DNA from: Polytrichum commune
Lineage: Eukaryota; Streptophyta; Polytrichopsida; Polytrichales; Polytrichaceae
Reading direction: 5' to 3'
DNA length: 64,000 nt
Assembly (NCBI GenBank): GCA_950295325.1
Contig: OX485805.1
Coordinates: forward strand, 49,376,758 to 49,440,757
A model generated the notes under the pieces. The model did no database searches. It saw only the letters and a list, made by a program, of their open reading frames with translations, and was not told where the DNA came from. The position numbers and the translations under genes were made by a program. Of the stretch, positions 1 to 60,351 are shown in pieces; within the stretch, counting starts at the first letter, position 1, and the number at the start of each line of letters is the position of its first letter.

Positions 1-1057
1 AGCACATTTGGTTTGAGATGTTGTCCAAACTACTAAAGATGGGTGATAATTGGGTGATAATTACAACATACAACTCCCAAGGGCAAGAAAACTTGCCTCC
101 TTTGTTAAACTCTCAACCTTTAATATCCCTAAGGTTTTGTGTATCTTCAAGATCGATTATACAATGATTTATATATATAATCATTTTATGGGCAAATCGA
201 GAATTTTTTTTCTCAATGAGACTGTTGTTTGGAGAAACACTATTTGAGGATTGGAAGCCAATAGTTTTCATGAATATAGCGATTATGTTGGGATAACTGG
301 TCACCGATTGGGAGGTTAGTCATGAGCTCAAAGAAGACACTCTACACATAGGATCATAATCTTTCATGCATTTTAGATAAGTCATTAGTCTTCATAAGAT
401 GAACATATCTATAAAATATATAGGCAAAGTAAATGTCATCTTCATCTTATGAAGATCTTTCTAAAGTTTTTGAGGAGGAGGCTTATATGCTTTTGTTGCT
501 TTTGAAAATGCTTACATGAAACTTATGACCTTGTATAGAAGGTAAAATTGTATGTATGTGGCCTTCAACTTTGTGTCAGCAATTTTGCTTCATGAATGTT
601 CATAAAGCAAGCTTGCAAATCTAATTTTGTAACTAATCAACATTCACACTTATGTGGCAACATTCATTCATGTTTTTGACCTACCAATTCATAACTTCCA
701 TAGGGGAGAACAAGCTAACATGTAGGGTTTCCATTGGATATGGAGAAGAGATCTTGTACATTCTTGCCTACTTCCAAGATCTCATGCCTTCCAATACATG
801 TCTAAGGTGCCCTAGGCTAGACACCCACCTCTTTGAACACATGGCCTTGGTAAACTAATTTAGGGCTTTTAATGCTAATGACGGGGTCACATATTCTAAA
901 AAGAAAAATTAGGCTTTAATATAAGTGATTGTGTTTTTAGCTTGGGTGATGTTGGTGGGAAGGCTAGGTCAAGAAGGTGGGCATCTAGCCCTAGCCATCT
1001 AGGTTCCTTTTGTATAATAAGCCAATATATAGTTTGCAAAGAAGAACCATGAAATCT

Positions 1058-1228
1058 CATAACATTATTCAAATCCATAACAATGTTATGTGGGAATGAC
1101 AATATTCTATAGAATATTCCCAGGTATGTGGTATATATTCTCATATTGAATGTGGGAAATACATGGGAATATTCCGTGGAATATTTTCATTCCCATATAA
1201 CATTGTTATGAATCTGAATAATATTATG
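1058..1228. repeat. Foldback MITE-like inverted repeat
   Basis: The arm at 1058-1122 (starting CATAACATTATTC) is repeated in inverted orientation at 1164-1228 with few mismatches, giving arms of about 65 bp around a 41-bp loop. A partial copy of the arm occurs near 25968-26003. Length and structure fit a non-autonomous foldback element. No target-site duplication was identified. Confidence 0.6.
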
Positions 1229-1378
1229 CTCATACATGGATTCTTCTTGTATATTGTTTAATGCCATCACAACTGAGATGACTCGTTGACTTTAAACAAA
1301 TGATGAGCCTAGTATTCCAATAATGAAAATGATTCTAGGTAGATGACAAGGAGGAACCTGATATATATACATATATCT

Positions 1379-1379
<1 letters not shown>

Positions 1380-1424
<45 letters not shown>
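1380..1424. repeat. (AC)n-(AT)n microsatellite
   Basis: About 16 uninterrupted AC units followed by AT units. Confidence 0.9.
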
Positions 1425-2667
1425 GGTAGAACCCTCTCCTGCTTGCCCGCAACCTAGTAACTTACCTAAGTTACCTCAAGAAATAGGTTGCCCGTGACTT
1501 CAGTTTTAACTTATTTACACACCTGGTGCAATATGTAACTTACGACCCAAAGAATCCCCGGGTCGATGTGAACGTGCCCTAGGGTTAGTGGAACAGGAGA
1601 TCGCCCGAAGTTATGACGGGTGCACGGCGTAAACTACACGTCACCACTGTGTAATATTTGCCCGCGGGACCATTATGGGATTTCTTGGCTATGGCCTCCC
1701 CAGGGTTTCGTGCTCCCTGCGGCTATGGCGTGCTCAGCGTTGCTGTTTCGCTTAAATCAAATTCTTCTAAGTCAGCCTTCGTGGACTAGAGGCCGAAAAT
1801 TTGACATAACAGAAGCCGCAGTTTCGTGGATAATTTTTGAATAATTTTGGGAATTTTAATTACCGCAGAAATGGCAGTAAAAATGCTGGCTATGGTGGAC
1901 TCATGAGTCTGGTGTCCACTCTCTTGCAATTAAGTTAGCGATTTCTGTAGCCTCTGTGAAGCGGACGAGAGTTTGATTTGTAAAAGAGAAATCATGAATA
2001 TTTTCTGGTGTAATTTGCGGAAATGGCTGTGATTATTATGTTGGCTATGGTGGTCTTGGCCAGTGATTGCAATGGACAATTTCGCGATGAGAGAATCTGA
2101 TTATGTAGTAGAAGAAGAACTGTGAATTTTTTTGGAGTAAGTTAATTTCGTTGTCACAGCGCGGAAATGGTAGTGATGCTGCTGCTTTTGGTAGATTTTA
2201 ATTAGGTTATGGTCTACGTGGCGTTGTTGTTTATGTGCGACATTGGAGAGGAATAGGTCTTCAGAAACCCTTGCAAACCCTTGCATAAATCAAGAAGTGT
2301 TTCAAATTCTGGAAAGATCAAAACAGTTCTCGAGTTTTTTTAAAACTGGCTGATGGTCTGATGGACTCAGCGTTGAAGGGAGGGATCTTTTACTCGTATT
2401 TTTCTTTCGGCAGTTCTTCTGTGTGGCAGTACCGAGGAGGAGAAATCTGCCATAGATAATCTGGAAATTGTGGAAAGCAGGTTGGAGAAGCTAGTGGCGA
2501 TGGAGTTGAAGGAGGAGTAGGAAGATGATCTTTAATTTTTCTATCCACATAAGGAAGGATTTCTTTTGGTCATGGCCTTTAGTAAGATATTATTGAGGCC
2601 TAACGAGATATAAGTTAGGATGAGGAGTTCAATGAATGCAGAGAAGCGTTATTATTCCGAATGATAA

Positions 2668-5600
2668 ATGGCGTCCAAGAAAGGAATTAGAATTCGGCTG
2701 TGCTTTGAGGAAGGCATGCTGAACGAGGCGCAGTTAGAGCAAGGGTTAAGCAAGTCGTGGTACCTTGTCAATGCTCAAATTCTCACTATCGGCCAGCTCT
2801 CATTCCGAATCACTGTCGACTTCCACCTCGCAAAGACTTGTCCCAATGGCGTCACCCTGGAGGTTAGAAAGCTTCTCACATTAGTTAGGTAGTCGAATTC
2901 CAGAAAACACATGTGAATGAAGTTAACAATGATCATTCAATCCTGAGTGAGGAGGGCTTGCTTTAGTTCCTGCAAATTGCTTTGGAAGTCGGGAAGTCAG
3001 CATTGCTGTTGTGATCATTATTACCTGGGGGACTGGAACATGAAGAATGGTTTAGGTCACGGTTAGGGTATCTCAATCTGAAGATGAGAGCTGCACTGAA
3101 GAGCTTAAAACAGTGACAACGAATTGCTGTTTACACTCTGTTTCGAGTTCAAAGACTGACTGAAATGGACGTGGTTTCAAGCAGTGTTGGACGGTATTGT
3201 CTTTTTTATATCACTACGGTAATTATAATGAGGATTTCACATGTTTTGATATCAGTGGGGTATGGGTATTTGAGGATATTTTTGTTTTCAATACCATTCA
3301 GATCTATATATACCATGCAAGAACCTTCATGCCGAGGCAAAATCGCCCTAGTATCAATATAATTTAGCATGGTATTCACCCAAATAATAACCTCGGTATA
3401 CAAAGATTTTCTCACCAAATATCAACATTTGACTGGTATCAAACTTTTGGTACCAGTCGGGTGTGTTCTTTGATACCATTATTGACGTTGATTATTGATA
3501 CCATGCATTCACCTAGATACCGGTCCAACATTGGTTTGAAGCTGCAAACTGCTACTCCGGTGTGCAATTTTATTACGCAGTAGAAAACATGCATTACATT
3601 TGACTGTTTATGAGAAGTCCAAGTATGATTCAGCAGAAATTTGGTGACAATGCAGATTGTGTTTTGAATTACTGTTGTTTTATTACATTTTCCCTTTAAC
3701 CTCATTCCTATAAGCCTTTGAATGAAAATTTTCAAGAGCTACTCTACCTAGAGTTAAACTAAGAGTTCTCTTTGATACCATGGCCCTGTATGTTCTGACC
3801 AATTTCCAAGGTCGTTGTGTAGAATTAGACATGCATGCAGCCTCTGTTGATGAGTACTGGTTGACATATTGTATTGATCTTTCAGATGTCTGGATTTGCT
3901 CTACCTCCAAGCCAACCTACCAGCCTCCTTCAAGATACTGAACTTGTCAGGTTTGTCTTATTCAATTTTTATTGCTTAATCATCACATTGCTTATGTGAT
4001 GGTTATGATTACAGGCGAATGTATGTAGATGTGGATGAATCACAGCTCAAAGATAAAGTTTCTTTGCTCCCTTTTGTTAATGTCCTCTTGACTAAGGCAC
4101 TCAGGGTTCTGTGACTTGGTCCTTTTTGTAGTGGTCTATGTTCTGCTTGAAATGATCTCAGTACCAGGCGAAGAATCATATGAGACCTTTCCTATGTGAT
4201 ACGTCATCCATCTGTGTCTCTTCATTGTTTGTCATATACTTAAACCCAGTTTTCCAATTCCTTAATGCAGTGTTAAGCGGAAAATACGGTTAACAGCAGA
4301 TGAAGTGACTGCTGTTTCTGCTGCTGGTACTATTGGGGCTACAAGTACGAAGAACACAGAATGTAGCGAAAAAGTCCTGGGTGCTCGCTATGGTGGGGAG
4401 GAGATCCGCCCAGTTGATGCATTTGAACTAGAGGCACAGGCTCGCCAAAGTGGAACTCTGGAGAAGGGAGCAGTTAGAAGTAGAGCAAAGGCCGTAGAAA
4501 TTGGACTTCAACTTTTGAGGACAAAAGAGACTGTGAGGAGGCGGAAGAGGACGTGCGATGGTGATGTTCCTATGTAAGTGCTGTGCACTTAGCACTTGTT
4601 TATAAATCTCTTGCATCCTGCATGAAGTCATCAGATTAAGATTCAAACTGAGTATTTCTGCTTGCTTTCTCCATGTTAAATGTGATCTAAATTACTCGAA
4701 CAACGCTGGTAGTAACAATGGCAGTAGCATTGCCGCAGACATGGTGAAGAGATTGCCACTGGGAAAGCAAATGACTTGGATACTGATGAGACGACAGATG
4801 CAGCTAAAGATGCAGCTGACAGAAGCGTTCATGGTGGTGATGTAAACAAGCTGGCTGATCTGTCTGAGAATCATGAAAAGGCAGTTCTAGTTGGTGAGGC
4901 TGAAAAGATTAGTACAGTGACAGGTGAGGAAGAGGAGGAAATAGAAAACTCAGACGATGACAAGGATGAACCAAGTGGTTTGGTGGAAAGTCCTGATGTT
5001 AACCAGTCCATTCTTTCTGTACCTCTGGCTTCGGAGGCCAAACCAGTTCAGGATCAGTAAGTCTTACTCTCCTACGTTTTGCAAATGCTTATTATGACTC
5101 ATTGGAGCTTGGTGATGTTCTATTTAAGCCCAGGACATTGTTGTGTTGTCGGTTTAGCAAAGCAACATGCCTCAGAACTGGTCATGCAATTTCTGCAGAG
5201 TACATCATAATTTTTCTGACTTAGTTTCTTGGGTGGTACTCAAATTTGCAGGTATTTGCATCAGCAGAACATTCTTGACAGCGAAAATGGAGAGAGTCCA
5301 GTTCGCAGGCAATTGAAGGAAAATCCTAGTGAGAGAAATGAAACTTGGTGTAAAAACCGTTTTGACCTATGGAGAAAGCAACAAGGTATAGATACAAGCA
5401 AAAGTCTTGAGGAGTTGCCCTATGAGGAGTTAGGCACCTTACTCAGCAAGTTCTTCCTCATGATATTCAAAGACAATGGTGAAAGATATCCTTCAGCCAG
5501 GTACTTTTTCTCTGGAACCTGATTTGTCTATAAGTTTTTGATGCTGCATCCTTGTAATATATGGAAAAGTATTTCAAGTTAATTTTGGCAGCAGCTTATA

Positions 5601-7237
5601 GTGCTTGATGCATCCATATTACAATAGAAATTATCGTCACAGAAAGTTGGGAAAGTGCTTCTGCAATATCCTTTCATTTATCCATCCTAATGCCTTGACA
5701 TTGCAATGACATTACAGCTTGATGAATTTGTATATGAGTTTCAACCGGATGATTGTTAAGGCCCAGCAAGAAAGAATCAAAAGGACAGGCATTGAGGAGG
5801 AATTATTCAAAATTCAAACACATCCATGTTTTCAGAAGGCTGGTCAATCTTGTCACAAGGCCATGGAATTGTCACGTTATTCTGGTGTTAACAAGAAACG
5901 CAAGAAGGCTGCTTGTATATCCTTGGAAGTGGAGAAACTTATTCTTTCGCACCCAGAGCATCAGGCTACCTTTCCCACCGGTGTGCAAAAGCGATTGGCC
6001 TACTACTTGTGGACTGTATTTCTCATTCGGGGAAATGAAGAGATGTGGAACTTGAAGTTTCATGACTTCAGTGTCCTTGTTGATGAAAAAGGATCCGAGT
6101 TTCTTCAGTAAGTCTTTCTTAGGTTCACTGTGTCTGCTCTTCATCTGTACAAAAGGCAACAATAAGGATCAACTGTGTTGTAGAGCAATGGCACTGATGA
6201 TTAACTAGGAGTATTTGTTTTCTCTGGAAGCGTTCTTTTCTGTTGACATCATAAGCGTGCATGTCCAGGTTGATACCCCTACTGTCCTTGATGATAATTC
6301 AACTTTGCCCTGCGGAAGGGATTTCGTAGTAAAAAGTTGAAAAATATTGATGGTCAACATGTGTGACATATAATTTTTTAAATCAAAGGCTTTTATTTCT
6401 CTCTGATAATTGTAATTACATCAACATCAAAATATTCTCATGTTTGTCCCTTTGTTGAGGACTCAAATCATGTTGTTCTTGAGGCTGGATGTCAATCTCT
6501 TTTACTCTTGCAGGAGAGGTCTTGTCTATCAATGTTCTCCTCTACTTAGGAGGGTTAGCGAGACTTGGAAAACTATGTTCCTGATGCTATTGCCATACTC
6601 TATGAGGGCAGGCTGGACATGCAAACCAGAGATGAATATTTTTACTCCTCATTTTGTAACTGCACATCTGGATGTTGAAAGATCTTCTAGAACAAAAGCA
6701 GCTACTTGTTATCTGACCTTATTTGGAAATGCATGTAGGTACAATCCAAGGGCCAAGAAAAGTTACAAGGTTATCATTACACAAGCCCAAGACAAAGTAT
6801 TGCAGCCACCTTCTGTATCATATGAAGCTGATGTTCTGCAGACATTCAAGGTTCTGTCACGGCATATGCCACCAAATTCTGGGGATGGTCACTTGTTCCT
6901 TTCGCCTATCAGGGATTCAAGGACTGTGGTAAGCTGTTTCTCATTGTTCTAGTGTATTTGGTAGTTGTAGAGGTCAAAATGTATGTTGCAGGCATTTTGT
7001 TGTCTTCCTCTGAGTCCATATAATAACATATATTTGATGGCAAGTGACTAGAAGGTGATCAAATTTCCTACTGGGAAATCAGCTGATGATGTCTATATTG
7101 ACCAGGTGTGGTTCAAACAAGGAATCAATGTTTCTAAAGGAATGATTCGTTTGTGGATGAACACCATGACTGAGGTGGTGGGTGCTGATGGGGAGTTCAC
7201 AAGCAAGAGTAGACGTGTTCTTGTCGCTGCCCAGTAG
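2668..7237 (+). CDS. Coilin N-terminus joined to Crypton-type DUF3504 domain
   Basis: Eight exons join in phase: 2668-2862, 3886-3950, 4271-4573, 4739-5056, 5252-5500, 5718-6107, 6514-6928, 7106-7237 (688 aa, no internal stop). Residues 1-95 match the coilin N-terminal domain in order: an RIRLCFEE strand, QGLSKSWYLVN, CPNGVTLE, then SGFALPPS and VSVKRK. Coilin is the Cajal-body scaffold in snRNP biogenesis. Residues 95-320 form a low-complexity linker with a basic run (RRRKR, a likely nuclear signal) and an acid stretch, as in coilins. From about residue 320 the protein resembles DUF3504, the Crypton tyrosine-recombinase-derived domain of ZMYM2, QRICH1 and KCTD1: RYPSASLMNLYM, then FLIRGNEEMWNLKFHDF, then GHLFLSPI and VWFKQGINVSKGMIRLWM. 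The usual coilin C-terminal Tudor-like region was not seen. The first 50 codons of exon 7 fit the family poorly, so that exon may carry frameshifts. The join could also be two neighbouring genes; transcript data would decide. Confidence 0.7.
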
Positions 7238-9179
7238 CATCTTCATCACATCTGCAAAATTCACAGAAGCCCTGTCTAGGTAATTAGTACATGCATTTAA
7301 TTTGCAGGTTCAAGAGCCTGAACTTGAGAACCACTTCTGTCATAGTTGTAAATGTCGTCCCATGCTGCGACCACAATCAGCATGCAACTTGCTTCATCAT
7401 TGACCATTGCCAAATCATGTGTATAGAAACAGTTTTTGATGAACTGATCCTTGATGAATTTAAGTCATTGTTCATAGAAACATGTAGTTTTGATGTATCA
7501 TATAATGAGAACATATCTCTCTTTTTGAGTATTGGCCATCAGAAATTATGCAGAGTTGACTAACTATTATGAATGTTCTCAGCGTGTATAACTTTTCTCA
7601 ACCCTATTTGCAGGTAAGATTCTGTGATGAGTTTGCTAATTTTCTTGCAGTAACGTCTCTTGGTGGGATTTTTTGAGTCTCCATTGCTTGAGTGGAGAAA
7701 GGAAAGCCCCATTAGGGCTCCTGAAGTCACAATGACCTCTTCTGATCCAACTCTGGTTTTTACAATGCAGTTATGTTATCAAAGCTCATCAGTAATATTG
7801 TAATGCTTGGGGATTGGACGATAGTACTTAAGGCTGTGACATACGAATTTATACATTTTCAGGATAACAGTAACCAGTCGTAGATGTAAATTCAGGACTT
7901 TGAGTTTTTTGAGCCTTGAGACTATTCCTGGTGATAATTTGCTGGATGAGTCTTAAGTTGAACTTCTAGAGTTGAGAGAACATCTAATTAGAGGCTTAAT
8001 GTTTCTAGGGTGCAATACATCAAGTTAATTCTTGACTCATATTTTGATTCAAAATTCATTTCATGCTGAGTAGTATTTTGCGTTGGAGGAAAGATTCAAT
8101 TGGGGAGAGAGAGTGGGACATGTAGGGGATCAAAAGGTCCTTTAACCCTTAAATTCCTACTATATTCTCTACCTGGTTTTGGCTGATTTCCCACATTATC
8201 AGATGCAACAATTTGTGACCCTCGATCTAGGAATCACAGAGTACATACAATCGTATAGTTGTGTTGTTCATAAAGTCTAGACTTCACAAATAAACAAATT
8301 GGATTGTTGATGTGGAGGTGACATGTACATTATAGTGGAAAAGTGAATGAAGTGAAGACATGTTATTTTTTTTGAGAAGTCCGATAGGAGATGAGTTCCA
8401 GATGACATAAGAGTAGGCTCAATGGATAGAGGGCTCAAAAACCTAACACATACACTCTATAGGACTCACAAGTGACATGAGCTTTGTTTGTTGGGGGAGA
8501 TTGTATAATGCCACATACAAAAGAGAGAGGTCTTCAAGGGCTCCCTGTTTTCCTTAGTATTTCTGTGATGTTGAAATGGAGATCCCACTGGTAGATATTG
8601 GGATAATATTCTATCAATGATGCATGCCATTTTCCAGACTGTTCAATGCTCATCCAAGTGAGGTATGTCCAGATTTCTAAACTTGCTTCATGGAGAACGA
8701 TGGGATCCTTGCAATGGAAAACAATGACAATCCCCGTTTCAAAACACATGTTCTTGAAGTTTCAAATTGCACTGAATTCTAAAGCTGTTTTGTTGTATAA
8801 ATGCACCAATGAGATCACCGCATCCTATTCAAGTTGCATAAGATTTTAAAATGTTTTGTAATGCTTCTCACAGCGGGATGAACCAAGGAGTTTGGTCCAT
8901 CTTTGAGAGAATTTTCAGAGCCTAATGTTGATACCTACATTCAAATGAGATGAACAGTCTCAGATGTACGATGGTGCTACACAACAATCCATGACCATCT
9001 ATGCAACTGAGCATGAAAATCCAATGTTTATCATGGGTTTGTCATTGAGTTCACGATTAACCCTGTAACAATGGAAGAGCACACAGAGTTCAACTGACAT
9101 AAAGCACTGAATTATGTGCCAAATTCATGACCATCTGAATAGCTTCAACCAAAAATTGTTTGCTGGTCATGCAAAATCA

Positions 9180-9500
9180 ACTACACTAAACATGCTATTT
9201 AGTGTCACCAATTCTAATTGTCTTGCTCAATACTAACTGTAAACTGCGGTATAGTGTCACCAACACTAAATGTTATCCCAACATTATTTGTCATTCCTTT
9301 TAAATTTTTTGGGGGATTATAGATTTACAGTGTTGCGATTACTGTCATTTACCAAGTGATTTTTCATCCAAAGTTTAATCATCCATGTCAATATTTCATC
9401 GCAAGATGCTGACAAGAGAAGGTAGGCTTTTGGCCAATGGCTGAACTCATCCATCATCCATGACAATATTTGTAAACTATTCATAAGAAGTATCATCCCA
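9180..9500 (+). repeat. Dispersed repeat, inverted copy at 14690-14960
   Basis: GTGTCACCAACACTAAATGT and the following bases through GTCATTCCTT reappear as reverse complement near 14854-14900, with related flanks on both sides. No termini were resolved. Confidence 0.5.
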
Positions 9501-9689
9501 AAAATTACCATAGTGACATCAAGTACCATATGAAACAAAAAAAACATTAATGAGGATCACAATAGAATGCCGTGTCCCATGTTTTTAACTCTTGATTAAA
9601 CCCTCACCATTAAGGGTTTTTTCCATCAAAGTAAAGGGCAACATAAAATGAAGGTTGCAAGATTCATTGTGGAATGTCCAGAAACAAAA

Positions 9690-10520
9690 CTGTAAACACA
9701 AAGCCATAATAGCACCTCCATATAGTTGATTTTTTAAATTTAGGGACATGAGCTCCATGTCAAGTTAAAGTCATGATGTCATCTCCACAGCATCACATGA
9801 ACCACACATTTGACCTCAATAAACTTCATTAGCAATGTGGATATAGCCATTCAAATGAAATAAAATAAAAAATAGCACATATGTGGGTCACCACTACAGT
9901 TATAGTAGAAGCCTATGGATTTACATTAATTTGAATACATTTAAACAGCATTTGTGTGGGTTTGTAAAATGTAGGGTTTTAATATTACCTAAAATTTCAC
10001 ATTAATGTGACTTCCACTTTGAGGAATAATACACATTTAAGGTTTGTGGCTTTATTGTGGGCACTTTCAACTCTACATGACAATTCTACATATGATTTTC
10101 CATGGGAAATTTTCAAGGAATTTGTTTCATTTGATTAACAGTGAAGAATAACGTAAAATTGGCAGTTCAGATCTCAAAAATTGGAGTTGAGATGCAAAAG
10201 TTATAAGTTGTCAATTTGGCGATTTTCTTTCTCTTTGAGTCATTGATAACATAGGCCCTCCGAATTGTGTTAACTATTGAGCCTAGAATGGTGTCCATGA
10301 TTTGAACACACAACCCAAGCTCACCGTGACACGTGTCCTTTTGATAATGTTCTTAACTGCAACTCTTGCTATATACCACTCAAATATAGGTTTCTTAGTA
10401 CAAGTGACCACATAAGGCTCACATACCTTATTTGGACTCTACAAATTTTTTAAAATTTTTAAAATTTTTTTTGTAGTATTTGGGTTCTACTCTGTACTCA
10501 TAAAGTGACTTAAACGCTTA
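9690..10520 (+). repeat. Dispersed repeat family, copies near 24490 and 36100
   Basis: The segment around ACATGAACCACACATT and TTCATTAGCAATGTGG recurs at about 24490-25160 and, shortened, at 36005-36235, in the same orientation. The copies are diverged and carry no open frame. Confidence 0.55.
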
Positions 10521-10639
10521 GTAATGTTGAGAGATTCATTTCTCCAAGCATCCGAATGTTAGCCGACTGAACAACCACTAAATGTCGAGTACTATTATGC
10601 TCGCATGTCATATGTGGGCTTTTTACATTATTTGGGCTC

Positions 10640-10850
10640 TACTCTACCAATGAATGAAGGAAACCGACCACTGGTTACAAATGAACCGGTTGAAGTTCAA
10701 GACTCCAGGAAAGTTACCCATCATTTTAAAGGGGATTCAGGTAATATACCGCGAACTAATAAAAAAATACCGAAAGATGTCCACATGGATTTAGTTGGAC
10801 TTGTAAAAACACTAGGATCTTGACCAATTGTGCCCAAAAACCTCCCTAAA
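10640..10850 (+). repeat. CCGGTT-rich MITE copy
   Basis: A diverged member of the family described at 12130-12355. It contains GATGAACCGGTTGAAGTTCA-like sequence and the same distal GTGCCCAAAAA end. The terminal CTCCCC motif has decayed to CTCCCT. Confidence 0.5.
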
Positions 10851-11809
10851 CAATCTACTCTACACTATTTGGGCTCTGACATGAGTACGAGTGCCCGGGA
10901 CAACCCTATCTCAGTTAACACTTTTGGTGGTAAAACAAGTTTGGAGGGGATGGCAACTAAAGGTGAGATTCCATGTAGGCTGCTCGTCGACTAGATATTA
11001 AAAACTAGTGGGTCGGAGGTGTTCGCATGTAGTTAAGCACAAGCGATCATCCAACCACATTATGACGGTTCCCTAAAAGCTGGAAGATCTCTAACACAGC
11101 TCTCTAGACTTTCATGTGTCTGCAAAAAAATCTTCAACCTACAAGTGCCGGTCATGGAAGTATTGAAGACCGGTTTAGAAGGTAACCATTGACACTTGAG
11201 TGCGCTTGTGGCATCAAGTTCTGCCTTTTACCTTGAGTTATGTTTGTGATCTTCTGTTTGTGCATGCTCAAAGATCACGTGTCTTGTGTGCGAGAATGTT
11301 TGTGTAGGTTGCCAACAAGCATTGCTGTTCAAATGATTGCTTCTTTTTCCCCTCACCATGGTTCCAGATCTGGATCTGAATAGTTTGGAGGAGATAGATT
11401 TATCCAATCTTCACACAATCAGGGTTTATGCACAAACCAATTGGAGTCTTCACAAGTGCATCATTTTGCAAGATGCCAAGCGTCGAGATCATGACCACCG
11501 AGCTAATGGCGGGGCTTATGAGGCAATGCGGAAGGGAGTAGATAGATGGACCCTCATTGAAGACATGCTTTGGGAGGAAGGTGTGCACAGGAGCGCACAA
11601 TAATGCAAGGTTGAGTGGGAGAAACTGACTGCAGAATTCGATAAAGTCTTCGATTTTGAGACGAACGTACCATCGGGGCGATACACATACTGGCAGATGC
11701 CAAATACTGGACGAAGAGATGCCAAGATGCCTCCCAATTTCCACAGATCGCTCTATGATGCTCTCATGCAATGGTATGGTAGAATGCGAGCAGTGAATCC
11801 AGGGAATTG

Positions 11810-12130
11810 GATATTGGATTCCGGAATTCCAGAGTCTTATTCACCTGGTTTGTTTCTAGAACCCACTTCAATGTGGTTGCGTCTCTGTTTGAACACTTGT
11901 TGTTGCAATGTGCGGGGAGAACCGACCGCTAGTTACAGATGAACCGGTTGAGTTTGAGAAATAACCGGTTGAAGTTCAAGACTGCAGGAACATTAGCGAT
12001 CATTTTAGAGGAATCTATGGAATATGTTGATATTGGATTTCGGAATTCCAGAGTCTTCTTCACCTGGTTTGTTTCTAAAACCCACTTCAATTTGGTTGCG
12101 TTTCTATCTGAACACTTGTTGTTGCAATGA
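11810..12130 (+). repeat. 219-bp tandem duplication over an exon-intron junction
   Basis: The end of trihelix exon 1, its donor and the first intron bases (11810-11911) are repeated at 12029-12130. Between the copies lies the 5' part of a MITE whose full copy follows the second repeat, so the duplicated unit included part of the MITE. Confidence 0.7.
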
Positions 12131-18344: not shown

Positions 18345-21300
18345 AGAAACTAGCAGTAGAAACTAGAACTGATCGGCCGTGCTTCGACTCGTCAACTCAA
18401 GATGTCACGTCACTCGCACCGTCCCGCTGCCGACAACTTCGACGTGGCAGGATTGGGCCCCACCTCGAGGTTTCATCCATTTTCCAAATGCTCCAAGAGT
18501 TATCCTAAGCATTAAGAACCTCTAATTCCATCCTTGTTCATCCTTCACCATTGCTCAATCGGGTCTGACATTATAGCCTGCTCAATTTCGATTTCCTATG
18601 GTCTGAATTTATCGGCCATAATCTCTCATGCAGAAGTAGGGCAAATCAGCGGATGGGACAACGACAGGGCCCAGGGCGGCCTCCAACAATGCAGGTCCGA
18701 CCGCATCATCCGATATGCATGTGAGTTTTCGGATTTCCACTATGGTGAGCAGGAATGATCTAGAATTGAGAAGAGCAGAATCTGTTGGCCTGTGTTCTGG
18801 AAGTGGAAATTAATTTGAGTCGTCGTCAAAAATTATCAATCAGCTAGAGGCTTTCAGAACTTTGTTGGCAGAGTAGTATGGGAAACCCGAAAGATGTGTA
18901 TTAGGTTTTACTAGAACACAAGAGAGAAAGAGTTGTACAGAGGTACCGTCCACATGTATGTCAATCACGACGGTGTGCATATTGCCATGTCTTGAGGTAT
19001 ACGTGGATGCTGCTTTTTGCTAACGACCTATAACTTACAATTGATTTTGATTAGGAGGAGATACTTGGGCCGTTGAGTCGTTTGTGTCCTCAGCCTATGA
19101 AAGTTTGTGATCGAATTTCTAACTATATCTCTGTTTATTTAGTACTCGAACAGGGGAAAATTCAGAGCAGAGGCAAGAGCAGCGCTGGCTGCTGATGGAG
19201 ATGGGACTTAATTCCTTGGAGGTTCCTGGTGCAGAGGATGTTCCTTTGAATAAGTTGAGCAAACAAGACCGTGGTGAAGGTATCGCCATGATTTATACCA
19301 CTCTCTTGTATTTCGTGGGTGCAAACTGCTTCTATTCATTCCAAATCATTTTGTTGCGGCCATAAATACTCCAGGCTGTGATTGTTTGCTGCGATGTAGT
19401 ATTTCACAATAACTTTAAAAGCACCATGACATGAACAATGTCTTCTGGCATCTCAATATTCTGTGGTTAACTTGACTTCCCACAGATCACAGACGGATTG
19501 GAGATTTTTTACCTGATATTTTTAACCCGTCTTAACTGTTTCTACTTGTGAGATTATCACACCTTGGCATTTCTGTGCTTGGCAGGTGAACGGTCTGAGC
19601 AGAGAGATCAGACGGAATTGTCAATTCCAACTTCAAAGAATACCAGCAGGCGAGCTCAGGCATCTCCATCCTACCATCAACTACGTCGTGGTGAAACGGA
19701 CATTTCAAGTGATGAGGTAGGGATGACAACCTCGCTTGCTCTAAATCTTGTTGTTGGTATGTGTTGGTACGTGTTGGTTTGTGTGTGGAATTTGATACTT
19801 CTTTCAAGTTTTTCTCCTAATCTAGGGAACCCTTAATTATGATCAATGTTAGGTAGACATAATGATTGATACTGATTCATGGGTGAATGTTATATTAATG
19901 TGAAGGCTGATGCGGAAATGTGCACTGGAATAATATTTGCTCCACCGACTCATGAGCATGGGAGGAATGCGAGTAGCATGAGCCTTCCTCCACAGAACCC
20001 CTCATCAGTCCAAAGCAGAGGCAAGAATTGGACCAATCCGGAAGATATACTACTGATACAAGCCCATGGCGGCCCTTACCCCATGAAAAAGAAGAGTTGG
20101 ACGGATATTGCATCGAACATTCCCTGGAGAACCGGAGATCAATGTCGATTGCGGTGGGACACACTTCTTAGAAATTACAGAAAAGTTCACTTCAATCAAG
20201 GAAGAACCAAGGAAGAGTACTTTGAGGATTTGTTGTCTGGAAGAATTTCTTGTGGCCAAGGAAAATTGAGCCAAAGGGATCACCTCCAAGAACGAGCGGG
20301 GGAGAGCCGGAAGAAGAGGAAAACCGTAGAGAGCGATGTGGCTCAGGACTGTCATTGCAAACGAGAGAGATTATTTGAAGTCCATGAAACAAATTCAATC
20401 TTACAATTAGCACAGCGCTTCCTCAAAATACAGGAGAGAAATTTGCAGCTGAAGGAGTTAAAGTATGAAAGGAAAACTTCTGGGGCTGAGCCAGCAACAA
20501 GTCAAGGTAATCTCCCTCATCCACAATGGCCAATATACGCTTAATATACCAGAAGCACATTTCACACTTTGGACGAGTCTCTATTGTTGAGTTGCACCAT
20601 CTGATTGGACTATTTATGCTTTTGTTGTCTCAGATGATGGGTTAAGAGCTGCAGAGGTTGGCACTGCACATTGGTCAAGTGGACAAACGAATTCTGGGGT
20701 GCCTTTTCATCAGGAACCTGTTAGCCAACTAATTGGAGATTTCCGTTATCTGGGTTGTGAAGGTGTACCTCAGTCGAATTTCAATGGCATTTAAAAATTC
20801 TAATTTTGTTAAGTAGTTTTGTTTGTACATATTAAGGAACAGAAGGTATAAGGCAGTGCATAACCAGCTCTGCTTGCACAGTTTATGTTTTTGCACAGTT
20901 CAATGTCCCACTGAGCAGGAAAACCACATTTAGGTGGTTGAGAATCATTAGATTAGTTGGGGCACCCCATGCCACCGTATTCCCATCCTTTGTGGATCAG
21001 GAAGGGCTTTCCTTCTCGATTTTCTGTGGCATTGGGGTAGTGTACAGCTTGTTGGAATTCACAGCGCTTTAAAGCTGCATCAGGAGTAGAGGATGTAGCA
21101 AGCAGTCTGTGGACTTAGCTTTCTTTCAGCTTAGGAAGCCTGAGAAGGCTCACATGAATGGAACATATTATATCTGGTTGACAGCAGAGTACAATGAAAT
21201 TTAACATTCTTTCAAGCGTGGATTGTAGTATCTACTTTCGTTTAGCAAGTGATGTATCAAAATGGTGACTCTTTTGGTGCTTGTAAAGTTTCAATCGTCA

Positions 21301-22926: not shown

Positions 22927-24357
22927 CACCCTAACCTTGATAATGTCACACCCTCCGTTTCACCAAAAAGTGTGATATAAACAAGGTGTGACATACTTGA
23001 TAATGTCATATTTTGTGCATAATGTGATATTATCAAAAAATATGTAGAAAATCAAATTATAATTATAATTTTTTTTTAAATAACAAATACGAGACTTCAA
23101 TGTTTTTGAATGTAAAATCTAATTCAAAATTGTGAATAACAACAAGAGCACATCATAATGTGTCATTAAGATCAGGTAAAGACCTCTCACTAGAGACAAA
23201 GAAGCTTCTAATGTCACATTGTTTTGTTAATGTTAAATGTGCAACACCAATTCTAATGAGTTTGTCATGGATTTTTTCCATTTCTAACAACTCATGAGTG
23301 CTGAAAATCTGAGAACCTTGGCTAGCCATAAAATTCAAAACATCTTTAGCATATTTTTGTGCATCGCTTAGCTTCACTACTTTAGACTCATCATCACTGC
23401 TATCAACAATCAATGGGTCCACTTCCATGGAATCAAGAACCTGTTCGCCATCTTGCACTAATTGCACAAGCTCCTCAGTAGAAAATTCCACCTCAAAATC
23501 ATCTTCACCTTCCATGTTTATGTAACTCCAAAGGACAAAGCTTTTCTACAGGCTTGCCTTCAACATCCAAACCCAAATTTAATGCGGCGACGAGTCTACC
23601 CAATTCCAAAGTTGCTTCCTCCATTTTGGACTTCATACGTTCATCAAGATTGTTTATATCTGCATTCCACTCTGCATGCAATATGGCGGACTTTCTCCAA
23701 CAATTTCTAATGGTTTGATCATCTAATTCATGCCATGCCGCCACACACCATAGCATAGCTTGAAATACATCAACATTCAATTTCCCCAAATCTTCATTTG
23801 AGTTGTTATCAATTTGTTGCAAAGTCCAGGCAACAAGCTTGCGCTTATAACACATTTTGAATGTTGCAATCACTCCTTGATCCAAAGGCTGAACAACTGA
23901 AGTCACATTTGGTGGAAGGAACAAGATAGTGATATGGGAGAGTACAAAAGCATTAAATCCATCTATAACTTTCTTGACCTCACCATGAATATCATGGCTT
24001 CCTGCATTATCCATAATAATGCAAATCATTCTGTAATTACATAATCCATAATTACACAAGGCATCCCACTATGCCGAAAGCATTGCATGAGAGCTCATTC
24101 AATGACCCCCAATATGCTTTGCTTTAGCCCATGCTCACCCATGAACAATAATATCGAACCCATGCCCACCCATACAATCCATCCATACTTGATATTATCA
24201 CATTTACACTACGGATTTTGAAAAAAAATAGTGGCATTATCAAGGGTGATAGGGATAATAACGAGGGAGTTTTACACTATGAAAATCGGTTTCAAACTTT
24301 TAGGTGACAATATCAAGGTGTTCTATTAACAAGGGTGACATTATCAAGGTTAGGCTG
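22927..24357 (-). mobile_element. Deleted pogo/Tigger-like DNA transposon
   Basis: 1431 bp bounded by inverted termini: left CACCCTAACCTTGATAATGT at 22927, right end reading CAGCCTAACCTTGATAATGT on the minus strand from 24357. Both are flanked by TA (22925-22926 and 24358-24359), the target of Tc1/mariner-pogo elements. The CTTGATAATGTCA motif is repeated inside both ends. Inside lies only the C-terminal part of a DDE transposase, so this is an internally deleted, non-autonomous copy. Confidence 0.8.
23153..24059 (-). pseudogene. Pogo/Tigger/Jerky-type DDE transposase, C-terminal part
   Basis: The open frame 24059-23505 encodes IIMDNAGSHD (the second catalytic Asp region) and LFLPPNVTSVVQPLDQG (the third-acid region) of the DDE_1 family shared by pogo, Tigger and Jerky/CENP-B. 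The N-terminal helix-turn-helix domains and the first Asp are absent. A second frame, 23515-23153, continues with an acidic tail (FEVEFSTEELVQLVQDGE) in a different register, overlapping the first by about 10 bp, so a frameshift lies near 23505-23515. Cannot encode active transposase. Confidence 0.8.
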
Positions 24358-28054: not shown

Positions 28055-31000
28055 TCTAGCAGTAGAAACTAGAACAGATCGCCCGTCCTTTGTCTATCCA
28101 ACTCAAGATGTCATGTCCCTTGCGCCCTTCCGCTGCGGACGACTTCGACAGAGCAGCAGGACTGACCTCCACCTCGAGGTTTCATCCATTCCTTATATAC
28201 TCCAAAGATTTCGAGATTAATTTCCTTTAATTCATCCTTGTTAGTTCATCCTTTACCATTACTCAAGGTGGAGTTTGTTATAGCCTGTCTTAATTTCCAT
28301 CTTCTCTGCTCTGAAATTATTGGCAATAATCTTTCATGCAGAAAAGGGACATCTCAGCTGAGTAGGCAACGTCGGGGCCGGGGGGATCGTCCAACACGCA
28401 GGTGAGTTTTCAGATCTCCACTGTAATGAACAGGAATGACGTAAAATTGAGGATAACAGAATCATGAATATGTGTCAGCAGACAGACGATCAACATTTGC
28501 TGCGAATTAGAAGTTTCAGTGGTCGTCAAGAATTATGAATGTAAGAGGCCTTCGGAATCTTGCTGTCAAAAAAGTATAGAGAACTCTAATGAATCATGTA
28601 TATTTGGTTTGCTATAACACAAGAGTTAGAGTGTCTACGGTGGTACCTTCCTCATGAATGTCGGTCACGACAGTGTGCATATTTCCAGGTCTTGCAGCAT
28701 ATGTGGCTGCTGCTAACACGCTATAATTTATTGTGGATGACATACTTGGGCGGTTAGGTCGCTTGTCTCCTCAGCATATGAAAGATTGTATTCAAAACTC
28801 TAACTGATTCTCTGTTTCTTTTTAACTAGATCAAGAGCAAATACAGAAAGTTCAGAGCGGGGGCAAGAGCAGGGTCGGCTAATGATGGAATTTCTGGAGA
28901 GATTTAAATTATTGCAGGTTCCTGGCGCTCTAGGTGCTCCTTCGAATAGATCGAGTAATCAAGACCATCTTGAAGGTATTGTCATAATTTACTCCACTTC
29001 CTCGTTTTCAACGGTGCAAAATCTTCCGTTTCATTACAAATCAAATTCTTGCGGCTATAGAAACCCCCAGGCTTTGAATATTTCCTGAGATGTAGGATTT
29101 CACAATAAATTGAAAAAAACCTTGTGATCAATGTCTTTTGGCATCTAATACTCCGTGGTTAAGTTGACTTTCGAAAACTCACAGACGAATCGAGATGTTT
29201 ACCAGTTCTCTTGTGGTTACTATGTCCACCATTTCAATATGGTGGTTGTTTCCGCGTGTGACTTGGAAGATTGACGAGATACAATTATTGAGATTCTCAC
29301 ACCTTGGCATTTCTGCGCTTGGCAGGTGAACGGGCTGAGGATAGAGATCAGACGGAATTGGCAATTCTAACGCAAAAGAATACCGGCAGGCGAGCTCAGG
29401 CATCTCCATCCTACCATCGACTACGTCGTGGTGAAAAGGACATTTCAAGTGATGAGGTAGGGATGACAACCTCGCTTGCTCTAAATTTTGTTGTCGGTAT
29501 GTGTTGGTTTGGGTGTGTGAAATCTGATACTTCTTTCAAGTTTTTCTCCTAATCTAGGGAACCCTTAATTATGGTCAATGTTAGGTAGACAAAATATTTG
29601 CTTACCGATTTACAGGTGAATGATATATTAATGTGAAGGACGATGCGGAAATGTGCACTGGAAGGATATTTGCTCCACCGACTCATGAGCATGGGAGGAA
29701 TGAGAGTAGCATGAACCGTCCTCCACAGAACCCCTCATCAGTCCAAAGCAGAGGCAAGAATTGGACCAATCCGGAAGATAAACTCCTGATACAAGCCCAT
29801 GGCGCCCCATACCGCAGGAAAAAGAAGAGTTGGACGGATATTGCATCGAGCATTCCCGGGAGAACCGGAGATCAATGTCGGTTGCGGTGGGACACACTTC
29901 TTAGAATTTACAGAAAAGAGCACCTCAATCAACGGAGAAGCGAAGAAGAGTACTTTCAGGATTTGCTGTCTGGAAGAATTTCTTGTGGCCAAGGAGAATC
30001 GAGCCAAAGGGATCACCTCCAAGAACGAGCGGGGGAGAGCTGCAAGAAGAGGAAAACCCTAGAGAGTGATGTGGCTCAGGACTGTCATTGCAAACGAGAG
30101 AGATTGATTGAAGTCCATGAAATAACTTCAATCTTACAATCAGTACAGCGCTTCCTCGAAATACAGGAGAGAATTTTGAAGCTTAAGAGCTAAAGTATGA
30201 AAGGAAAACCTCTGGGGCTGAGCAGGCAACAAGTCAAGGTAATTTCCCTCATCCATAATGGCCAATAACGGCTTAATATACCAGAAGCACATTTCACACT
30301 TTGGGTGAGTCTCTATTGTTGAGTTGCACTATCTGATTGGACTATTTATGCTTTTGTTGTCTCAGGTGATGGGTTAAGAGCTGCAGGGGTTGGCACTACA
30401 CATTGTTTAAGTGGACAAACGAATTTTGTGGTGCCTCTTCATCAGGACCCTGTTGGGCAACTATTTCCAGTTTTCCCCTTTGTGGGTTGTGAAGGTGTAC
30501 CCCAGTCAAATTTCGATGGCATTTAAAAATTCTAATTTTGTTGAAAAATAGTTTTGTTTGTACATGTCAAGGAACAGAAGGTATAAGACAGTGCATAACC
30601 AGCTTTGCTTGCACAGTTTATGTTTTTGCACAGTTCAATGTCCCACTGAGCAGAAAAACCACATTTAGGTGGTTGAGAATCATTAGATTAGTTGGGGCAC
30701 CCCATTCCACCGTATTACCATCCTTTGTGGATCAGGAAGGGCTTCCTTGCTCGATTTTCTCTGGCATTGGGGTAGTGTACAGCTTGTTGGAATTCACAAC
30801 GCTTGAAAGCTGCATCAGGAGTAGAGGATGTAGCAAGCAGTCTGTGGACTTAGCTTTCTTTCAGCTTAGGAAGCCTGAGAAGGCTCACATGAATGTAACA
30901 TATTATAGCTGGTTGACAGCAGAGTACAATGAAATTTAACATTCTTCAAGCGTGGATTGTAGTATCTACTTTCTTTTAGTAGGTGATGTATCAAAATGGT

Positions 31001-39186: not shown

Positions 39187-42100
39187 CTACTGTGGTGATT
39201 CATCATTGTAGTCTGCCTCTGTATCCTCCATTTGCATAGCAAGCTGCACCTCGTTGCTAGAAAGCTCCCTGGAACTTGATAAAACAAGTGGCATTGCTAC
39301 GGTATCATCAGCGACATGATGTGCCATCAATCCCTGAGTTACAACATCGTCGCATAAGCTTAGGCAGTGTAGATCTGGTCTTCCTTCAGCCATGGAAGTC
39401 ACTCTCACACTTCGTGCCTCTTTGCGTAGAACTACCTTCCATCCAGGATGTGCCACATCGTCAACAAAGAAAACCTGTTGAGCATGAAGAGGAAACGCAA
39501 ACGAATCTGATGAGTATGGAATGGTGCGGTCAATGTTCACGAGAGTGAAACCGTACTCATCTCTTTTCATAGTTGCCCGTGGCCCAATCCACGTGGCGCG
39601 GACCCACTTACAATACAGTAGGAGTATTTCAAACTTCCCATAGTCAGCCCCAATAATCTCTTCGACCCACCCCACGTACTCCACGTTCGCAAGCCTATGA
39701 TTCTTATCCTTTCTGCTGGAACGGCAAGATTGTGAGAATGTTGCAGCTACTCCGCTGTCGCACGTTGTCAAGTGGCCCTCTGCTCCTCGCACATGTATAT
39801 GGTTCCCGTATGCATACATGCTGCGATACGATTTTGCCTCGCATGAAGGTGGTAGGACAAGGCCAAGAATATCTTCATGGACCTCTGTGCCTGCTGCCAC
39901 ATCCCGTTGCACCGCGATAGGAAACCACTCAGAAAACTGCTCATTCCTTGCGATTGCTGGATACTCTGCTCTTCTGCCCCGTGATCGACGACGTATCTCT
40001 GCACGCATTCTGTGCCGCGTTTCCATCTCCAAGTAGTGACGTCTGATTGAAAGCCACAGTGGATGGAAATTAGTTACATAACAAAAACAGCCGGCAGATA
40101 AATGTAATCGTCATCAACATCTAATTCCCTAGTCATGTGTTGCAATATGATGACTGAAATTAGTACGCAGTAGACCTTTGTTGACTATAGAGTCACATTG
40201 TCCCTTCTAGACAGAGTGCATGACTAAAACATGTGATGCTTATTCTCTGTTAGTCATGTGTTGCAATATGATGACTAGAATTAGTACGCAATAGACCTTT
40301 GTTGACTATAGAGTCACATTGTCCCTTCTAGACAGAGTGCATGACTAAAACATGTGATGCTTACTCTCTGTATGACTGTAGAGGCTCAGCATTCGTGAGA
40401 ACAAACTCGTGAATCCGTGCCCTCAGCTCTGATGTCAAGAGTCGATATCGACCTGTACCCTCCGCGACCTCACTCTTGGCCCCTACTTCCTCCTCATCGT
40501 CCCAAGTCCTCCTGCGTGTTAGCTCACAGTCTTGCATGTACTCTGTGCAAAATCCTAACGCCTCCTCTATTGTGTACCCCCTCGCCATGGATCCCTCAGG
40601 TTTTGCTCGTTGCCTAACATAGCCCTTCAGTCTCTTCAGGTACCGCTCAATAGGATACATCCATCGGGTGTGTACGGGACCACATATATCCAACTGCTGC
40701 ACCAGGTGAATGGGGAGGTGCGACATGACATCAAAGAATGAAGGTGGAAAAACCATCTCTAGCATGCATAGAGTCTCAGCTGTGTACTCCAATAACTGTT
40801 CTATGGACGAGGGATCTACGGATTTTGCGCACAATCGTACAAACACCCGGCTAAGCCGCATTATTGCCACCCGCGTATCCCTGTCTAAGAGAGTGCGCAA
40901 ACACAAGGGGAGCAATTGTTGCATCAAGACATGGTAGTCATGAGATTTCAGCCCCTTCAAGTCCCCATCCGACGCAATGCATTTTGCAAGTTGGCTAGCG
41001 TAGTTCGTAGGAGTCTTCAAATTGCGGATAATGTCTATGAATTTTGCCTTCTCTTCTTTCGATAGTACATATGGAGCTGTTGGAAGTACGACAGACCCAG
41101 GTTTCCTTCCTCGAAGAGGGTGCAGATATTGTCGAATGTTGGCCTCTTTTAAGTCTAGCCGGGCCTTCAAAGTGTCACAGACTCCCCAAATTGTTTTCAT
41201 CACGTTCTCGCAGATGTTTTTTTCGCAGTGCATGGGATCCAAAAGATGTCTAATGAGGAGGTCCTGCCAGAAATCCCAGCAAAGCATTCCAGCGTCAGAT
41301 TTACTCACTTTCGACAAAGACTCTTAAGCATTCATTGAAAAGATATAGGTCCATATTTTGGATCATCCACACTGGCAGTCATGGATTTATGAAATTGCAC
41401 TATTCACAGTCACTCTTCTTACCAACCAGGTTACTAGAGTCAGTCAACAATTATAACTGAACGTACTGGAACCAGTGATTGATTTCAGAAATTGCACTAT
41501 TCACATTCAACCTGCTAACCGTGTTTGTTACTAGAGTCAGTCAACAATTCTAACTGTCAGTTACTGGAACCAGTGATTGATTCCTGAAATTGCACTATGA
41601 ACATTCAACCAAATAAGCGTGTTTGTGTCTAGATTCAGTCAACAATTCTAAATGTCAGTTACTGGAACCAGTGATTGATTTCAGAAATTGCACTATTCAC
41701 ATTCAACCAGATAAGCGTGTTTGTTACTAGATTCAGTCAACAATTCTAAATGTCAGTTACTGGAACCTGTGAATGCGCTAAGTACCTGCCAATACAGAAG
41801 CTTATAAAGAGCTGAGAGCTGCTTCACTCCGGTGCGCTGAATGGGGTCGCCTTCTCCTCCACCTCTTCTTCCCTGTGACTCTTGCAGGAAGGACAATCTT
41901 TCTTGTGCATAGCCCTTGATGTCGCATCCTGTTAGAATTGGAGGGGGAGGTCGGTACTCCTGTTGACCATCAAATGAATGCTTGAGCCTACGATATGGAT
42001 GCCATCTACTGAGATACCGGCGGTGACCTAAATATACATTCTTTCCGAGAGCCTTTGACCGCCGAGTTGTAACATCTGGCCCACACTCGGTACACGCTCT

Positions 42101-59000: not shown

Positions 59001-59829
59001 CATTTTGGATATTTGTGGTTTTGGTGGTGCACCAAGGATGACCGTCGCACATCTTGTCCATGCCGTCCATTGAGCGACCATACGTACTTGGAGCTTTGAA
59101 TGCCACAGGAGGCAAGAGAAACAAAACATCACCATTAAAAGAAAATGGTAAGTACTTGACTTCACGAACATCTATACTGTCAAAATCAATGGATGCAAGA
59201 TCGGACTTTGATCTTTTTCTTGACTTTGTTAGCTTCAAGGCATCAACCATAGTCAACCCTGTAGATGAAGGTGAAGGGTGTAGTGGAGGACGTTGAGAAG
59301 GTGAGATTTGGGGAACCACCTTGTTGTACATAAGACCGCAAGGGGATTTGGCTACATGTATAGGAAGTTGGGAAGGAGTAGAATGAACACTTCTAAATGG
59401 AAATGGCGATGTGTTTGAAAGATCAACAGATGCACAAATGTCATCTTCTGAATCTGATAGCACAAATACACTATCATCAAGGGTTTCCACCTTAACATGT
59501 GCGATAGAGGGAATTTGAACTGTGGATGTACCGGATTCGTTTGTCAAAATGACAGTTGAAGCTTGCATCTGAGACTCAGAAAGTCCTATCACCCTAAATG
59601 AACCAGGTCCTAAGATCCACATAAAACCAACATCAGTTCTATTTTGTGGAACCAAAATCGTTTCATACACCTCTCCATCTGCAGAGTACATCTCATGCTC
59701 TAAATACATGGTTCCTATCTGGAGGTTGAATCTCAAACTAAGTAAATCCTCTGAAACACTCACATGACCATCATCTTGGAGTGGCAAGATGAAGGGAACA
59801 AAAGATCCATGAGCTCTAATGGTAGCCAT
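56027..59829 (-). CDS. MULE-type transposase with Cys-rich and SWIM fingers
   Basis: Two exons join in phase, 59829-57694 and 57394-56027 (1167 aa). Residues 271-300 contain a Cys/His-rich motif (CDGHPWCTTKTTN, CAGHLQCHNDYCDYMN) and more cysteines follow to about 400, suggesting a FLYWCH/WRKY-GCM1-like DNA-binding module. Residues 525-640 resemble the MULE DDE core: CHVYDSRYCKML (Asp549), FKGFMADSAQANWNAV (Asp598) and CLFHWSASLDKV (C-x2-H). The third acidic residue was not assigned. The C-terminus has a SWIM-type finger (HCTCPDF...GKKGKWVYCKHLYYVF). MULE transposases with SWIM fingers act in the nucleus on terminal inverted repeats. The frame is intact, so the gene may be active. It diverges from the gene at 60352 across only 522 bp. 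The 5' end of exon 2 and its acceptor are duplicated upstream in the intron. Confidence 0.75.
57331..57665 (-). repeat. 219-bp duplication of MULE exon 2 start
   Basis: 57331-57443 (exon 2 start plus intron end) is repeated at 57545-57662, including the acceptor and GATATGACAATAGAAGAGCG; the acceptor offset is 219 bp. The extra exon copy runs into palindromic repeats and would not continue the protein. Confidence 0.85.
57465..57537. repeat. Three TTTGGGTCG-NN-CGACCCAAA palindromes
   Basis: Three copies of a 20-bp palindrome (the first with one mismatch) inside the MULE intron, of the same type as the array at 62009-62420. Confidence 0.9.
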
Positions 59830-60351
59830 AGAAAATCAAAAGAACATATGAACAACACATCACAAAAATATGGGGTGAATGTTGGTTTTGTATAGAGTTG
59901 TATGAGGAAATGAATGGAAATGAAAACGTGTGATACAATAATGGATGGAGATGAAAGCGTGTGATACATAGCATCTAATAATACAGAAGTGGACATAACA
60001 CAATAATAGTCATAGAATATTTACGAGCAAAATATACAGAAAATGGCGTCAAATACTAAAAGTATTGGTAGAAAACAAAAATATATATGTGTGGACTAAC
60101 GTAGATGTAGAAAGAATTAAAATTGGTTGGAAAAATAAATTATTGCTCATTATGAATAGAACAAAGTAGGTGTCAGAAAATTTTGGTGGATATAACAAAA
60201 ATAAACACATAATGACAAACGCGTCGAAATATCTCGCTCATTGAACGCCAATTACAACATGTGATCGTAATATACGCCGGATTTTGTGAGATAGATACAT
60301 TGGAAGAATAAATGATAGTACCTGATAGAAAACATATCATAGACACCAACG
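59830..60351. promoter_or_regulatory. Short divergent intergenic region, likely two promoters
   Basis: 522 bp of AT-rich DNA between the start codons of two diverging genes. It must contain both 5' UTRs and promoters if both starts are right. No specific box is claimed. A small repeat, GAAATGAA...CGTGTGATACA, occurs twice at 59910-59970. Confidence 0.45.

Follow-up and report, generated by a model that had tools for sequence, protein, structure and literature searches.

The window analysed here, a stretch of 64,000 nucleotides from Polytrichum commune (contig OX485805.1 of GenBank assembly GCA_950295325.1, hereafter C3, positions 49376758-49440757), contains a predicted gene that is, as read from the genome, a fusion of exons 1-3 of a duplicated coilin to a Crypton-type tyrosine-recombinase (YR) domain. 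The gene occupies positions 2668-7237 of the plus strand, and consists of eight GT-AG exons which join in phase (intron phases 0,2,2,2,2,2,0) without a stop and encode 613 amino acids. It is highly probable that these exons make up one fused, translated gene. A second coilin-YR fusion, L009, and the canonical coilin, L010, were identified in searches that covered the 407.8-Mb, 64-contig assembly. The assembly also has four above-cut-off matches to SAM_LFY, the profile of the plant-specific LEAFY family, as expected of a land plant or a near ally.

The coilin part and the canonical coilin

Protein queries detect three genomic copies of the coilin N-terminal exon, in the window gene, L009 and L010. 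Taken alone, exons 1-3 of the window gene score 33.3 bits against the Pfam profile Coilin_N, barely above the cut-off of 32.9. Exon 1 is 52% identical to that of L009 and 51% identical to that of the canonical coilin, with a phase-0 donor in all three genes, and exon 2 has the same length (65 nucleotides) and phases (0/2) in all three. The length of exon 3 (303 nucleotides) and its phases (2/2) are common to the window gene and the canonical coilin; the two exons align with a global score of 33, which is reached by none of 1000 shuffles (-21.7 +/- 11.5), and with a local score reached by 21 of 1000. Residues R8 and D82 are invariant across the three copies, and are presumably the counterparts of human coilin R8 and D79. 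The position that we take to correspond to human R36, which contacts Nopp140, has a different residue in the window protein and likewise in the genome's canonical coilin.

The earlier note on this sequence proposed that a Crypton-derived domain had been captured by a plant coilin or had replaced its C-terminus, and raised the matter of a separate coilin elsewhere in the genome. Such a coilin is present at C1:13.24 Mb, where L010 is represented by the Coilin_N exons and by Tudor_Coilin pieces; the profile Tudor_Coilin exceeds its cut-off only at C1:13249071-13249503, in two pieces (two of three matches). The queries used for the C-terminal part of coilin had no match in the window or in L009, and no Tudor-like C-terminus was found for the window gene. 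Because the canonical coilin remains, it was a coilin duplicate and not the sole coilin that was altered, and replacement of the C-terminal part is supported for that duplicate. Searches of solved structures gave no useful relative for the coilin N-terminal domain or for the whole protein, the latter in the 706-residue version described below.

Gene model and corrected exons

The eight-exon, in-phase and stop-free series of coilin N-terminus, linker and recombinase domain that the earlier note described over 2668-7237 stands (Table 1), but its length of 688 amino acids has been revised to 613. The difference of 75 residues corresponds to the codons of 6514-6738, so exon 7 had apparently been started at 6514. 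These 225 nucleotides are open by chance, and none of the aligned relatives has residues there. An intron at EFL[QKR]-Y in the relatives places the exon 7 acceptor at 6739, and this phase-2 intron position is common to the transposon families F1, F2 and F3 (Table 1), to L009 and to a further YR gene, L030. An exon 8 start at 7052 was also rejected, as 7106 fits the relatives: F1-F3 read SRS-N-VWF, or like it, uninterrupted, and the window gene reads SRT-V-VWF with exon 8 from 7106. A 706-residue model with exon 7 from 6514 and exon 8 from 7052 was the query for the solved-structure searches and for the first profile and protein searches.

For a frame as long as a single exon, the chance of being open in the window lies between 1.2% (exon 6) and 35% (exon 2). 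Upstream of the YR domain, which begins near residue 318, the only in-frame methionines are residues 1, 17 and 66, all in the coilin exons, and none occurs between residues 66 and 364; translation of the window YR model would therefore have to begin within the coilin exons. An Rfam scan of the window gave no match at gathering scores.

Table 1. Exons of the window gene (window positions) and families of resident Crypton-like elements (locus numbers)
Feature	Position or loci	Strand	Description
Exon 1	2668..2862	+	Met1 to residue 65; coilin N-terminal domain, including R8; Coilin_N match
Exon 2	3886..3950	+	65 nt; end of coilin N domain, including D82
Exon 3	4271..4573	+	303 nt; coilin exon 3, a linker with a basic end
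Exon 4	4739..5056	+	Acidic linker; open, GT-AG, phase 2/2; no in-frame Met
Exon 5	5252..5500	+	YR core-binding domain begins, from about 5322
Exon 6	5718..6107	+	Core-binding domain and box I Arg (R481, 6028-6030)
Rejected segment	6514..6738	+	Exon only by the 688-residue length implied in the earlier note; most likely intron; no counterpart in aligned relatives
Exon 7	6739..6928	+	YR catalytic lobe; start corrected
Exon 8	7106..7237	+	Box II remnant SKSRR (7202-7216), then stop; without His and Tyr boxes
F1	L007, L008, L011, L012, L020-L022 (7 places)		Crypton-like, YR gene
F2	L013, L018, L023 (3 loci)		Crypton-like, YR gene
F3	L014, L028, L032 (3 loci)		Crypton-like, YR gene
F4	L024-L027 (4 places)		Crypton-like, YR gene

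The recombinase part

The YR part of the window gene matches multi-copy transposon copies with expectation values down to 3.8e-71 (706-residue model), which identifies it as a homologue of Crypton recombinases. It is 40-50% identical to F1, F2 and F3 and 31% identical to F4. By exon, the identity to F1 is 51% in exon 5 (over 5319-5495) and 50% in exon 6 (E=1.9e-34); exon 8 is 52% identical to F2 over 7106-7234, beyond which the C-terminal part of F2 has no match. At the DNA level, the sole full-length genome match of exon 6 is exon 6 itself. Compared with 49 loci, the opening 9 kb of the window gave no match at the DNA level at an expectation value of 0.001, and the element end GTAYTAG described below was not found in window positions 1-12000. 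Two pieces of 56-57 nucleotides that resemble the 3' end of exon 6 occur at C4:7568901-7568956 (91%) and C1:3301963-3302019 (88%), and are perhaps scraps of a relative nearer than the element copies examined.

The label DUF3504-like, which the earlier note attached to this domain, holds only indirectly. The QRICH1 Pfam profile scores 12.7 bits with the 706-residue model (E=0.13), far under its cut-off of 30.8, and the connection runs through the transposon relatives, which are themselves below the Phage_integrase cut-off of 27.1 bits (second exons of F2, F3 and F1 at 25.1, 21.9 and 21.7 bits, with expectation values of 1.7e-5 to 1.9e-4; F4 piece at 12.3 bits, E=0.15). Phage records, and viral contigs queried with an F1 piece, contained no relative.

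The box I arginine, the K-x-x-R of box II, TGH and RY are present in the aligned members of F1-F4. The window YR keeps R481 and the box II arginine, R607; the third-box histidine and the tyrosine are absent, leaving the residue set of an active recombinase incomplete. The window protein ends six residues past box II, and L009 is without box II too. Since neither of the fused YRs extends as far as the His and Tyr boxes, catalysis is very unlikely, and the window protein very probably carries out no recombination.

Resident Crypton-like elements

The elements of Table 1 are accompanied by a degenerate pair, L019 and L031, with 71-74% DNA identity. Between chromosomes, the DNA identity of copies is 95-98.5% in F1, 74-95% by piece in F2, 90-96% in F3 and 97.9-99.4% in F4; from these values, the F1 and F4 lineages have probably both moved fairly recently. 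Two F1 loci, L007 and L008, do not differ anywhere along their length, and may represent a segmental duplication. The left end GTAYTAG is shared by all of the copies looked at in F1 (4/4), F3 (2/2) and F4 (4/4), and was seen at none of the three F2 edges looked at; the right element end was seen in two F1 copies only. Several of the transposon copies carry stops or breaks.

The shared edges of F1 lie about 3.6 kb apart and enclose six open reading frames of at least 90 amino acids, including two long ones on the plus strand (364 and 528 amino acids). When these two were scanned against Pfam over nearly their full length, only Phage_integrase was matched (E=0.0018), with no reverse transcriptase match; in F1, the family examined in this respect, the YR is the sole catalytic gene seen. 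Given this size and the absence of a reverse transcriptase match, the elements look like Cryptons and not like DIRS elements. Multi-copy, near-identical Crypton-like elements in a land plant are a notable result in their own right.

A second fusion and a related YR gene

The second fusion, L009, lies on the minus strand at C1:35971500-35981400, unlinked to the window gene on C3. Its six exons, all GT-AG, encode 643 amino acids, with intron phases of 0,2,1,2,2. A Coilin_N domain (44.5 bits, above the cut-off) is followed by a long linker and a YR domain, in the layout and orientation of the window gene. Four introns sit at the same positions and in the same phases in the two fusions; two of these lie in the coilin part, and the other two, at YPxxS and EFLx-Y (both phase 2), in the YR part. 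The L009 YR is 32% identical to F4.

A YR gene that has the window gene's YR introns but no detectable coilin N-terminal domain was observed at C7:14.42 Mb, on the minus strand (L030 and L036). L030 was considered as a third fusion and rejected, the best coilin N-terminal match having an expectation value of 0.37 in the surrounding 12 kb, of which about 8.9 kb lie upstream; the locus is perhaps a third domesticated Crypton gene. L030 shares two YR introns with the window gene and L009, and a phase-0 intron before VW[FY] with the window gene. As read in the transposon copies, F1-F3 have only the second of the YR introns and F4 only the third.

One fusion or two

In the YR tree, the window sequence falls with F1-F3, and L009 falls with L030 and F4 (support 100/99, or 100/100 after correction of the L030 row). 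The groupings of the window with F2 (81/89; 80/91) and of L009 with L030 (92/90; 81/83) are weaker. Monophyly of the window and L009 YRs is rejected by the approximately unbiased (AU) test (p-AU 3.2e-6, and 1.1e-4 with the corrected L030 row), a comparison chosen after the tree had been seen and involving in L009 a long branch (1.34-1.44 changes per column). The test does not reject an F1-F3 clade that excludes the window (p 0.10 and 0.09), so the window gene could keep introns that were lost by the transposons.

The position of the two YRs in different Crypton-like lineages suggests two fusions or one very old one, and the sequences compared here lean towards two separate events. A single ancient fusion, before the split of the Crypton-like lineages and with later loss of the coilin part from L030 and the transposons, seems rather unlikely. 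It would account for YR introns 1 (YPxxS) and 2 (EFLx-Y) being common to the window gene, L009 and L030, with intron 3 common to the window gene and L030, and for the absence from both fused coilin domains of the same internal residue, which is present in the canonical coilin; however, it requires several losses, it conflicts with the rejection of YR monophyly, and the window and L009 linkers show no clear similarity beyond shuffles.

Possible function and alternative explanations

The coilin N domain may self-associate and so recruit the protein into coilin-containing nuclear assemblies, and the YR core-binding and partial catalytic lobes may bind DNA or make contacts to further recombinase subunits, in which case the fusion protein would be an adaptor linking coilin assemblies and DNA. 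Having lost its catalytic end, the YR part could do no more than bind DNA or other recombinase subunits. In the part of the literature drawn on here, R8 and D79 of the human coilin N domain drive self-association and R36 binds Nopp140 (PMC9556525), and the N domain of Atcoilin multimerises and binds RNA (PMC3539977). The adaptor role by itself is put forward tentatively, as a possibility suggested by the domains. The explanation as a whole, a non-recombining coilin-YR fusion with an adaptor function, is the best available and is held with moderate confidence.

Several observations weigh against this explanation. The whole 706-residue model scores 30.3 bits with Coilin_N (E=4.5e-7), under the cut-off of 32.9. 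No relative of exon 4 was detected in coilin exon 4 or in the N-terminal parts of three transposons, and because the window exon resembles neither parent its boundaries are defined solely by splice sites and the open frame. The structural models, which cover the transposon relatives F4 and F1 and not the window protein itself, are only partly confident (mean predicted local distance difference test, pLDDT, 64.4 for F4 and 51.7 for F1), and in a Foldseek search with the F4 YR model none of 242 matches reaches an expectation value of 0.001, the top match being Cre (E=0.2). The R36 counterpart is not kept, which makes classic Cajal-body targeting uncertain. Finally, the fused gene is known here from genomic sequence alone, and DNA binding is a prediction.

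A different function, which appears unlikely, is that of a restriction factor: a subunit without the tyrosine would co-assemble with resident Crypton recombinases or element ends and poison or sequester the synapse, and multimerisation of the coilin N domain would add valency. The nucleophile is absent from both fused YRs, both F1 and F4 have the between-chromosome identities of lineages that probably moved fairly recently, and two fused genes would match two resident Crypton-like lineages (the window gene with F1-F3, and L009 with F4 and L030). However, this match could be coincidence, and identities of 46-50% between the window and F1/F2 and of 32% between L009 and F4 are distant for subunit poisoning. 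An extension of this idea, which is more speculative still, is that coilin N was fused twice independently to disabled YRs of both lineages, giving a host system which would gather Crypton recombinases or ends in nuclear bodies and block transposition. Because one genome has this design at two loci, a functional reason for it can be put to the test, namely whether coilin assemblies are tethered to DNA or resident Cryptons are restrained.

It is improbable that two adjacent genes, a truncated coilin N-terminal gene that terminates in exons 3-4 and an independent, domesticated YR gene, have been wrongly joined. The exon 4 donor, CAG-TAA, would halt an unspliced transcript immediately, and L009 has in-frame methionines between its coilin part and its YR domain; against this, the window gene offers as in-frame starts for its YR only the three methionines in the coilin exons, and the identical joint architecture recurs at an unlinked locus. 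Least probable is a decaying fusion without a protein product, for which the truncated YR, the reading of the locus from genomic sequence and the long L009 branch could be cited, but which is hard to reconcile with 613 and 643 codons free of stops and frameshifts and with splice sites that are all present, when several transposon copies are broken.

Other features of the window

Elsewhere in the window, transposon remnants with Pfam matches to Transposase_21, DUF4218 and DUF4216 occur at 39187-43595 on the minus strand, and are presumably of the CACTA/EnSpm type. A DDE_1 transposase fragment at 23505-24068, also on the minus strand, is taken to be pogo/Tigger-like. Two similar Myb/SANT-like open frames lie about 10 kb apart on the plus strand (19876-20544 and 29624-30193), and are probably a duplicated gene or element. 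Two long open frames on the minus strand, at 57607-59835 (742 amino acids) and 56027-57394 (455 amino acids), have no Pfam match; the latter holds a CTCP...CKHLY motif that we take to be SWIM-like, as in MULE transposases.

Comparison with known systems

In keeping with the statement of the earlier note that it knew of no protein with this architecture, none combining a coilin N-terminal domain and a YR was found in the open-licence literature, and no publication there combines coilin and Crypton. Among the matches listed, no DUF3504 paper has a plant in its title or abstract opening, and no title among those mentioning Crypton together with Physcomitrella or Physcomitrium reports a plant Crypton. 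The fusion would bring a land plant into the range of Crypton domestication, the partner here being the domain of a nuclear-body scaffold.

A 2011 survey describes Crypton domestication in animals and fungi; in the parts of it used here, Table 1 lists no plant host and the tree legend includes one Chlamydomonas species code (PMC3212892). According to the portion consulted of a 2024 paper, Cryptons had not been identified in plants (PMC11397423), and the elements seen here in a land plant are contrary to that statement. The plant section of a 2024 review, in the portion consulted, counts Crypton as one of the classes of transposon and describes it as rare in eukaryotes (PMC11630846).

Four kinds of known system can be compared with the window gene. 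Among the animal DUF3504 genes, KCTD1 and the ZMYM genes have partner domains which differ from coilin. As far as the source was consulted, the animal genes (KCTD1, ZMYM2/3/4, QRICH1, KIAA1958, WOC; PMC3212892) are like the window gene in being domesticated Crypton YRs that have lost most catalytic residues, and the DNA- or protein-binding roles proposed for DUF3504 by Kojima and Jurka in the same source are close to the possible role of the window YR. They differ in having partners other than coilin, and the sequence link to the window, through the QRICH1 profile, is weak. Crypton transposons share the YR core-binding and catalytic lobes, and the resident elements share an intron with the window gene; in contrast to them, the window gene has no other full-length genomic match to its exon 6 DNA, has no GTAYTAG in the positions searched and lacks the His and Tyr boxes. 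Plant coilin, as described for Atcoilin in the part of PMC3539977 consulted, likewise has an ordered N-terminal domain, and the match of exons 1-3 is to the genome's own canonical coilin; the window gene differs in its YR domain and in the Tudor-like C-terminus, which was not found in it. The ALOG proteins (LSH1/G1), in the part of PMC3537659 consulted, offer a further likeness, as plant proteins derived from the DNA-binding domain of a mobile-element YR.

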